44,672 bases of DNA, from NCBI RefSeq assembly GCF_021555155.1, contig NZ_JAKGBU010000039.1:1-44672 (forward strand). The letters run 5' to 3'. Both the position numbers and the translations under genes were made by a program. Numbering within the stretch: the first letter of the stretch is position 1; every line of letters starts with the position of its first letter. The notes below the pieces were generated by a model. That model had not been told where the DNA came from. It searched no databases and saw only the letters and a program-made list of their open reading frames with translations. Source of the stretch: Rhizobium alarense. Its GTDB lineage: Bacteria > Pseudomonadota > Alphaproteobacteria > Rhizobiales > Rhizobiaceae. Shown here one piece after another: positions 3,036 through 4,089 of the stretch.

Positions 3036-3683
3036 TCAGGCCGCCTTGCCCGCTCCGCCCACGCCGGGCATGGGCTTCAGCGTGCTCATCAGCGCGCCAT
3101 AGGGCAGCAGCATGAGCACGCCGACCATAACCTTGACGCAGAAATCGCCGAGCGCCCAGGAGATCCAGCGCGGCGCCTCGAACGCAAGCGCGCCGAAGAG
3201 CGGCGCGCTGCCGATCGCGAAGTCGTCGTTCGGCCCGAAGACGACGAAGGCCGGCGCGAAGGCGAAGGAGAAGAACAGGGCCGTGTCGAGTGCCGAGCCG
3301 ATCAGGGAGGCGATCAGCGGCGCCCGCCACCAACTTTGGCGGCGCAGCCTGTTGAACACGGATATGTCGAGAAGCTGGCCGGCGAGGAAAGCGGAGCCGG
3401 AGGCGATCGCGATGCGGGGCGCGGCAACGGCGAAGGAGAAGATCACGGCGACGGCGAAGCCGGCGGCAACGACCCGCCGTGCGACGCGCGGGCCGAACTG
3501 GCGGTTCGTCAGGTCGGTGATCAGGAAGGCGACCGGATAGGTGAAGGCGCCGTAGGTCAGCAGATCCGCGAGGTTGATACCCGCAAATGTACCCGGCAGC
3601 GGATATTGCACGAGGATGTTCGAAGCGACGACGACAAGCGTCATCAGGAGGATATAGACGAGGGTCGTGCGGTTCATTCGCAT
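3036..3683 (-). CDS. yhhQ: Queuosine precursor transporter (YhhQ family)
   Basis: This is a 215-residue, about six-helix inner-membrane protein of the COG1738/DUF165 family. E. coli YhhQ imports 7-cyano-7-deazaguanine (preQ0) for tRNA queuosine synthesis. The family hallmark LTYGAFTYPVAFLITDLTNR is present at about residues 41-60, followed by hydrophobic segments and a further conserved WALGDF stretch near the C-terminus. The start ATG is preceded by AGGA with a 7-nt spacer. It lies downstream of rpmB on the same strand with a 115-nt gap that holds a terminator-like hairpin and a possible regulatory pseudoknot. The neighbouring gene on the other side is convergent. The family assignment is secure; whether preQ0 or preQ1 is the preferred substrate cannot be read from sequence. 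Confidence 0.92.
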   Translation of the reverse strand: MRMNRTTLVYILLMTLVVVASNILVQYPLPGTFAGINLADLLTYGAFTYPVAFLITDLTNRQFGPRVARRVVAAGFAVAVIFSFAVAAPRIAIASGSAFLAGQLLDISVFNRLRRQSWWRAPLIASLIGSALDTALFFSFAFAPAFVVFGPNDDFAIGSAPLFGALAFEAPRWISWALGDFCVKVMVGVLMLLPYGALMSTLKPMPGVGGAGKAA

Positions 3684-3709
3684 TTTTTTATCCTGGGAGA
3701 TGCCACCAG
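3680..3709 (-). promoter_or_regulatory. Possible H-type pseudoknot (preQ1-I-like) over the yhhQ start
   Basis: Read on the minus strand, CTGG (3709-3706) can pair with CCAG (3696-3693). The nine-base loop between them contains GCAT (3703-3700), which can pair with ATGC (3683-3680) formed by the start codon and the next base. An A-rich linker (GAT then A's) joins the two, and the AGGA ribosome site overlaps the 3' side of the first stem. A short stem, loop, A-rich tail and tail-to-loop pairing in front of a queuosine-precursor transporter is the plan of preQ1-I riboswitches. However, the first stem has only 4 bp and the loop lacks an obvious match to the conserved aptamer loop, so this may be coincidence. 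Confidence 0.3.
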
Positions 3710-3726
3710 CTGGAGGACGACGACGG

Positions 3727-3769
3727 CTTCAAAACATCAAGGCCTGGCCGGATGCCGGACAAGCCTTGA
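3727..3769 (-). terminator. Hairpin downstream of rpmB, possible terminator
   Basis: On the minus strand TCAAGGC (3769-3763) pairs with GCCTTGA (3743-3737), and inside this stem CCGG pairs with CCGG around a short loop. The hairpin is followed by TGTTTTG, a short and interrupted U-run. It lies 30 nt past the rpmB stop and before yhhQ, so it could end the rpmB transcript or act as a leaky attenuator in the yhhQ leader. Confidence 0.5.
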
Positions 3770-3798: not shown

Positions 3799-4089
3799 TC
3801 AGGCGGCTTCGGCGGTCTTCTTGGCGATCTGGCGGCGCAGCAGGCGGGCACGCATCGACAGCTCGGTCTCGTCGGCCTTCAGGAGGAAGGCGTCGAGGCC
3901 GCCGCGGTGTTCGACAGAGCGAAGGGCTGCAGCGGAGACGCGAAGGCGGAAACGCTGGCCGAGCGCGTCGGAGATCAGCGTGACGTTGCACAGGTTCGGC
4001 AGGAACTTGCGCTTGGTCTTGTTGTTCGCGTGGCTCACATTGTTGCCCGACATGACGCCTTTGCCGGTCAATTCGCAACTACGGGACAT
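3799..4089 (-). CDS. rpmB: 50S ribosomal protein L28
   Basis: L28 is a component of the large ribosomal subunit. The 96-residue length is right for alphaproteobacterial L28. The N-terminus [11 protein letters not shown], the basic segment [15 protein letters not shown] and the C-terminal [13 protein letters not shown] are family hallmarks. There is no zinc-binding CxxC pair, so this is the zinc-independent form. The start ATG is preceded by AGGT with a short spacer. It is a single-gene unit with its own strong sigma-70-like promoter about 90 nt upstream, divergent from the DUF3108 gene. Confidence 0.97.

Follow-up and report, generated by a model that had tools for sequence, protein, structure and literature searches.

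A probable preQ1-I-like riboswitch with a start-codon pseudoknot in front of yhhQ in Rhizobium alarense and its relatives

The window, the whole stretch of 44,672 nucleotides of Rhizobium alarense DNA that was analysed (contig NZ_JAKGBU010000039.1), carries on its minus strand the gene yhhQ preceded by rpmB, with a short gap between them that contains a GC-rich hairpin and most of a 30-nucleotide element running into the yhhQ start. The features of the locus are as follows.

3799-4089, minus strand: rpmB (ribosomal protein L28), the upstream neighbour of yhhQ on the same strand (TIGR00009)
3737-3769, minus strand: GC-rich hairpin between rpmB and the element (inverted repeat in the sequence)
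3680-3709, minus strand: whole element, 30 nucleotides, 5' CUGGUGGCAUCUCCCAGGAUAAAAAAAUGC 3' (sequence and match to the covariance model R1)
3036-3683, minus strand: yhhQ, queuosine precursor (preQ0/preQ1) transporter of the VUT family, 215 amino acids (profile matches)

The yhhQ reading frame scores 93.8 bits against TIGR00697 (cut-off 50.95) and 80.6 against PF02592 (cut-off 27.2), bearing out the queuosine-precursor transporter assigned by an earlier sequence-only reading of this DNA, and lies under the cut-off of the stricter NF008406 equivalog (114.5 vs 252). The rpmB gene is directly upstream of yhhQ in Sinorhizobium meliloti too. The hairpin is possibly the rpmB terminator, and if it does end rpmB transcription then yhhQ requires its own promoter in the short gap. 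The terminator scan did not flag this hairpin, and the promoter scan returned no sigma-70-like site. Similar inverted repeats followed by T-runs are seen in several relatives (uncounted).

The minus strand from 3709 to 3680 reads CTGG TGGCATCTC CCAG GATAAAAAA ATGC as DNA and CUGG-UGGCAUCUC-CCAG-GAUAAAAAA-AUGC as RNA, with the 3' end formed by the yhhQ start codon and one further base. Its parts, from the 5' to the 3' end, are two predicted helices (P1 and P2), a loop and an A-rich segment (L3).

3706-3709, minus strand: P1 helix, 5' strand CUGG, motif positions 1-4 (constant across the 186 loci, out of 194, matching the locus pattern, which itself requires CUGG and CCAG)
3697-3705, minus strand: nine-nucleotide loop UGGCAUCUC, positions 5-13 (U5 and C13 the same in all 29 alpha and gamma forms)
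3700-3703, minus strand: P2 helix, 5' strand GCAU, positions 7-10 (complementary to 3683-3680; covariation)
3693-3696, minus strand: P1 helix, 3' strand CCAG, positions 14-17 (same basis as the 5' strand)
3691-3694, minus strand: Shine-Dalgarno-like AGGA overlapping the P1 3' strand (sequence; putative role)
3684-3689, minus strand: A-rich L3, positions 21-26 (AUG preceded by six A in 183 of 186 motif loci)
3680-3683, minus strand: P2 helix, 3' strand, the AUG and the next base C (C in 87 of 87 distinct leaders with a GGCAU loop)

The anatomy given in the sequence-only reading, a 4-bp stem with a GCAT loop complementary to ATGC, an A-rich linker and AGGA on the stem, is all present. P1 of the window copy is 4 bp long as read from the sequence, with the bases outside CUGG and CCAG unpaired. 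A pattern built on the element and its relatives occurs once in the window and in none of 100 shuffles with three mismatches allowed. The folding energy of the window leader is no better than that of shuffles (z = 0.69), which is unsurprising with a P1 stem of only 4 bp, and is likewise non-significant for the UC loop form described below and for the Escherichia coli leader. The covariance model R1, built from 20 element forms of which the window form is one, gives a single match in the genome of the window, the element itself (49.5 bits, E 4.9e-10).

In the GTDB family yhhQ is present in 188 of 199 genomes, and R1 matches 176 of the 199, one match apiece, covering 98 of the 109 sampled genera. 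The 11 family genomes that have no yhhQ give no R1 match, and the element is tied to the presence of yhhQ with a Fisher probability of 3.7e-12 (uncorrected for kinship). Twelve yhhQ genomes are R1-negative; two of them (G101 and G173) carry a variant with a longer linker, and in ten neither an R1 match nor the variant was found. Five of these ten leaders were read (G123, G161 and the loci L038, L062 and L091) and all are without the element, the remainder being G004, G006, G092, G110 and G167. Locus-by-locus reading covered 90 family loci, 87 of which have the element immediately at the start of yhhQ: the window's own locus, 29 of 29 closest relatives and 57 of 60 more diverged family loci. 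L038, L062 and L091 are the three that lack it. A named set has the element in 77 of 80 loci (L202-L204 are without it), distributed over Shinella, Rhizobium, Agrobacterium, Ensifer, Sinorhizobium, Ciceribacter, Mesorhizobium, Aminobacter, Aurantimonas and Pseudochrobactrum. In S. meliloti Ak57 it precedes yhhQ and scores 51.6 bits with R1. Outside the family R1 matches none of 288 alphaproteobacterial genomes under the stricter filters of large searches, no such element is visible by eye in 29 yhhQ leaders of alphaproteobacteria outside the family (including L115), and the exact pattern (loops U-K-S-CAU, 3-base linker) has no match in viral contigs. The information per position is 1.82 bits within the motif, 0.06 from -60 to -11 and 0.66 over the next 45 coding bases, calculated from 109 rows selected with the motif pattern, a choice that in part builds in the invariant columns; 13 of 122 rows with non-standard length or a short flank are omitted.

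The 186 loci fitting the pattern reduce to 154 distinct leaders after removal of repeats, and these differ in the loop in a way that tracks the base following the AUG. Leaders with the GGCAU loop (U-GG-CAU), the form of the window, have C after the AUG in 87 of 87 cases, and those with the GCCAU loop (U-GC-CAU) have G in six of six, whereas the 61 leaders with the UCCAU loop (U-UC-CAU) have A in 38, C in 15, U in eight and G in none. By their complementarity the GG and GC loops are G-C and C-G versions of a predicted fourth P2 pair with the start-codon context, and the UC loop is the version without it. G is absent after the AUG in all 61 UC-loop leaders although it could pair with C7; by analogy with E. 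coli, the UC group perhaps avoids the fourth pair because C7 would be needed for a triple.

In a maximum likelihood phylogeny built by a quick method from 122 YhhQ proteins, in which support is weak for 54 of 119 inner branches, the loop type requires at least four changes. The base after the AUG requires at least seven changes within the UC group (31 rows, spanning length 7.8) and none within either the GG group (85 rows, length 24.3, about three times the UC branch length) or the GC group (six rows, length 3.1). At the UC rate about 22 changes would be expected in the GG group, giving a crude Poisson probability of 3e-10 that is to be read as an order of magnitude only, with group spanning paths that overlap. 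Counted as pairs in the alpha forms alone the covariation is weak, its score being reached by 35 of 500 shuffles, since all other columns are invariant. Conservation and covariation of loop and tail across orthologues, the check proposed in the sequence-only reading, are both found, the former in the loci read around yhhQ and the latter as the loop-dependent base after the AUG.

A strong translation initiation site, composed of AGGA and an A-rich spacer and serving high expression with no switching, would account for part of this anatomy. A-rich spacers favour initiation, and AGGA placed 7 nucleotides before an AUG is a good initiation site. The 5' half of the element (CUGG and most of the loop) is, however, equally conserved in the pattern-selected rows, and AGGA is lost in four GC-type leaders (L055, L069, L124 and L126) that keep P1, indicating that service as a ribosome-binding site is not the sole reason for the conservation of P1. 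The rule relating the loop to the AUG context is also unexplained by a plain start site, and pairing of the AUG should hinder initiation. On these grounds this explanation is rejected as very improbable.

The yhhQ leader of E. coli carries a type III preQ1-I riboswitch for which a preQ1 KD of 57.9 nM, a structure and reporter data are reported (PMC10622847), the structure being PDB code 8FZA (PMC11625349). In E. coli K-12 the leader reads UUGGG-UUCCCUCAC-CCCAA-linker-AAAAAGG, and a gamma-type element is recognizable by eye in 28 of the 31 yhhQ leaders examined, one from E. coli and 30 from genomes of another class of the same phylum, which were taken to be gammaproteobacteria. The E. coli type III riboswitch and the rhizobial element have in common yhhQ as the gene, a nine-nucleotide loop, loop-tail pairing, a G-C floor pair, a U after P1, a C before the P1 3' strand and an A-rich L3. 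The UC form of the loop, UUCCAUCAC, found in Mesorhizobium-type genomes, equals the E. coli loop at eight of nine positions. The lone difference is a C in E. coli replaced by A in the UC form, and its partner in the tail changes from G to U, so that the P2 tail is AAGG, the Shine-Dalgarno sequence, in E. coli and AAUG, containing the start codon, in the rhizobial element. This near-identity, with its single mismatch compensated in the tail, largely answers what the sequence-only reading had named as its weak point, a short stem and an unmatched loop; the stem stays short.

U5 and C13 of the element are equivalent to U6 and the specificity base C14 in E. coli, whose roles in the riboswitch are described in PMC10622847, and A24-A26 are equivalent to A25-A27, of which A27 contacts preQ1 (PMC10622847). 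The mapped E. coli contact positions G5-C15, U6, C14 and A25-A27 are all kept at the equivalent sites. The window form differs from E. coli in the upper part of the loop, where GG replaces UC (U7 and C8 becoming G6 and G7) and the gatekeeper A13 is replaced by U12, placing U rather than A before the specificity C. It also has the extra fourth P2 pair to the base after the AUG and a P1 of 4 bp.

A combined alignment, A2, of 15 alpha and 14 gamma forms places these correspondences side by side. G4, U5, C13 and C14 are invariant in all 29 forms, as are A19-A23 of the alignment, and the seven core pairs are paired in 99.5% of 203 cells, consistent with the pairing of an H-type pseudoknot. The covariation score of the core pairs is 0.429, a value reached by none of 500 shuffles (mean 0.114) and above the slid controls (at most 0.134). 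Three core pairs change on both sides. Percent paired, double-change cells and covariation score all exceed every one of the 500 shuffles and every slid version, and two further measures, the counts of pairs and of pair types, stay within the range of the shuffles (438 of 500 as high for the core pairs, 434 to 478 over the analyses with and without the fourth P2 pair). Addition of the fourth P2 pair (7/26) gives 90.1% of 232 cells paired, with 22 of 29 forms not forming 7/26. In P1, two of the four pairs have both bases exchanged between the alpha and gamma sets, and the P1 covariation derives from this comparison because P1 is invariant within the alpha set; pair 9/24 may have changed only once, between alpha and gamma. 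Alignments A2 and A3 use 181 of the 186 alpha loci, omitting five with a loop one base longer. A2 holds 14 of 20 gamma forms, with L131, L136 and four others left out, and its P1 pairing is slightly flattered because the outermost P1 pair is mismatched in the omitted L132 and L138-L140. The gamma extraction missed L137, L144, L145 and L157; in L137 the element is present and one base longer. The E. coli leader is not retrieved by R1 as one match (best piece 5.5 bits), and R1 is therefore a model of the alpha form only.

The one-to-one correspondence with a proven E. coli RNA bears on a second explanation, in which the inverted repeat CTGG-N9-CCAG is a DNA operator through which some repressor protein controls yhhQ. 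Its palindromic form, strong conservation and location at the gene start would fit an operator. An operator nevertheless gives no account of the loop-dependent base after the AUG, of the near-constant A-run and spacing to the AUG, or of the E. coli match, and it was rejected, its probability being judged only marginal.

The class to which the element belongs can be considered mark by mark. P1 of preQ1-I RNAs is described as 5-6 bp (PMC10622847) and is 4 bp here, while the closing G-C pair, the following U, the specificity C and the A-rich L3 of this class are all present. The UU that follows the P1 5' strand in type III is UG in the window copy and in the GG and GC loops generally, and UU in the UC group (61 of 154 leaders). 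The AC preceding the P1 3' strand is UC in the window copy, with A at that position in 83% of the 109 rows. The loop pairs with AAUG instead of the AAGG of type III, which is equivalent with one compensatory change, and the location in front of yhhQ is shared with type III (87 of the 90 loci read). The window copy lacks two type III sequence marks and the pairing with a Shine-Dalgarno sequence and is for this reason described as a preQ1-I variant and not as a type III member. Type II riboswitches (Bacillus subtilis, T. tengcongensis) resemble the element in the H-type pseudoknot, the A-rich L3 and, for most alpha copies, the AC before the P1 3' strand, and the P2 of B. subtilis type II is described as all Watson-Crick (PMC11625349). 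Their tail, unlike that of the element, hides two Shine-Dalgarno bases or drives a terminator, and their genes are queT and the queCDEF operon rather than yhhQ.

Searched with Rfam release 15, the window leader has no preQ1 match at E <= 10 (one chance hit), the whole window gives only one tRNA at the gathering threshold, and 15 relatives give 25 matches, none to a preQ1 family. The E. coli K-12 yhhQ leader (L093:4080-4280), used as a control, matches no family at E <= 10, and the Rfam negatives are given no weight because a proven riboswitch is equally missed. RF00522 is the Rfam PreQ1 family for preQ1-I RNAs (PMC2258182, PMC3766115) and appears not to cover the E. coli type III member. This exposes a gap in Rfam, in which both the rhizobial group and the E. 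coli type III member are missed.

The element is thus, with good confidence, a translational preQ1-I-like OFF riboswitch closest to type III in which P2 would be formed between the loop and the start codon; the ligand, the OFF sign and the block of initiation at the AUG are what we infer from the conserved anatomy and the aptamer match. The divergent alphaproteobacterial form of a minimal translational preQ1/preQ0-type switch put forward in the sequence-only reading gains support from the conservation and covariation described above. To judge from the alignments, the aptamer is retained while the P2 partner moves from the Shine-Dalgarno sequence to the start codon. At low preQ1, P1 would be only marginally stable and the tail single-stranded, allowing the ribosome to use AGGA and the AUG and YhhQ to be made. 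At high preQ1 the ligand would sit on the G4-C14 pair, form Watson-Crick hydrogen bonds with C13 and be held by U5 and the L3 adenine A26, locking the loop GCAU onto AUGC so that initiation on the importer mRNA would be blocked, with AGGA partly buried in P1 at the same time. PreQ1 would in this way repress its own importer in a feedback loop. A similar principle is described for H-type pseudoknot riboswitches acting by direct occlusion, in which the ligand locks a pseudoknot holding initiation signals (PMC10907184); those described there hide the ribosome-binding site, whereas the element would hide the AUG, with AGGA only partly within P1.

The same fold could instead serve another ligand (preQ0, queuine or another 7-deazapurine), with a ceiling in window-type copies unlike that of type III. 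The GG and GC forms replace E. coli U7 and, in the case of GG, also C8, bases of the pocket and its ceiling, and YhhQ is reported to import preQ0 with preference (PMC10622847). The floor, specificity and minor-groove bases that read preQ1 are nevertheless all kept, and the E. coli riboswitch that precedes yhhQ favours preQ1 about 138-fold (PMC10622847). The gene content of the genomes points both ways: 47 of the 178 motif genomes encode QueF but lack QueC, so that preQ0 or preQ1 would be what they import, but 78 of the 178 have neither. Overall a ligand other than preQ1 is considered unlikely, although clearly less so than the operator or the plain start site.

The genome of the window encodes QueF, QueC and TGT. 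With QueF and QueC called from matches at E <= 1e-15 in the 199 family genomes, the 178 element-bearing genomes (including the two variants) comprise 52 with both genes, the 47 with QueF and no QueC, one with QueC only and the 78 with neither, and many bacteria of the family seem to depend on imported queuosine precursors. The ten remaining yhhQ genomes have both genes in two cases and neither in eight, and the 11 genomes without yhhQ have both in six and neither in five. QueF is absent from eight of the ten element-less yhhQ genomes vs 79 of the 178 element-bearing ones (p 0.046, uncorrected for kinship), and loss of the element tends to accompany loss of QueF. This would be expected if obligate salvagers gained little from repression, yet the genomes with neither gene that keep the element are numerous. 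Queuosine is reported to be needed for the symbiosis of S. meliloti, and in a HeLa-cell assay preQ1 supplied with the medium rescues its queC and queF mutants (PMC3568095). If preQ1 is bound, the aptamer reaches a species for which the available text of that study names no preQ1 uptake route (PMC3568095).

Type III is placed almost exclusively in gammaproteobacteria by the introduction of the E. coli study and in 'proteobacteria' by its discussion (PMC10622847), and in proteobacteria by the 2024 preQ1 review (PMC11625349). It is described as hiding the Shine-Dalgarno sequence (PMC10622847), and the term 'start codon' has no occurrence in either the review (PMC11625349) or the E. coli paper (PMC10622847). 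In different bacteria yhhQ is stated to be under various classes of preQ1 riboswitches, with McCown et al. 2014 and RegPrecise as the sources cited (PMC5372724). Binding of preQ1 by the element would extend a type of aptamer described as the smallest in nature to the 98 of 109 sampled family genera in which R1 finds it. Titles and abstract beginnings found by literature searches disclosed neither an alphaproteobacterial yhhQ riboswitch nor a preQ1 platform at a start codon, with an alphaproteobacterial sequence being possible in the set of McCown et al. 2014, who are said to have defined type III.

Taken jointly, the observations tip slightly in favour of a distinct preQ1-I subtype of the Rhizobiaceae and their relatives with the start codon as its platform, one base-pair swap away from type III and either descended from it or ancestral to it. 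The GG form (the window, Agrobacterium and Sinorhizobium) would have a rebuilt pocket ceiling and a fourth P2 pair reaching into codon 2, and may differ in ligand preference or strength of control, and the loci L239-L241 would link the two platforms. Should the element bind preQ1, it would show that one base-pair swap within an aptamer is enough to move an expression platform from the ribosome-binding site to the start codon.

Three loci have the element in a different register. They form one branch, L239, L240 and L241, with leaders that recur in L069, L124 and L126, and the element's AUG is not in the yhhQ reading frame there. The next AUG in frame comes 13 bases later, and the tail AUGGA(G) is located at Shine-Dalgarno distance from this start, which is assigned from the frame alone. 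The arrangement resembles the gamma platform and is a possible bridge between the start-codon and Shine-Dalgarno platforms.
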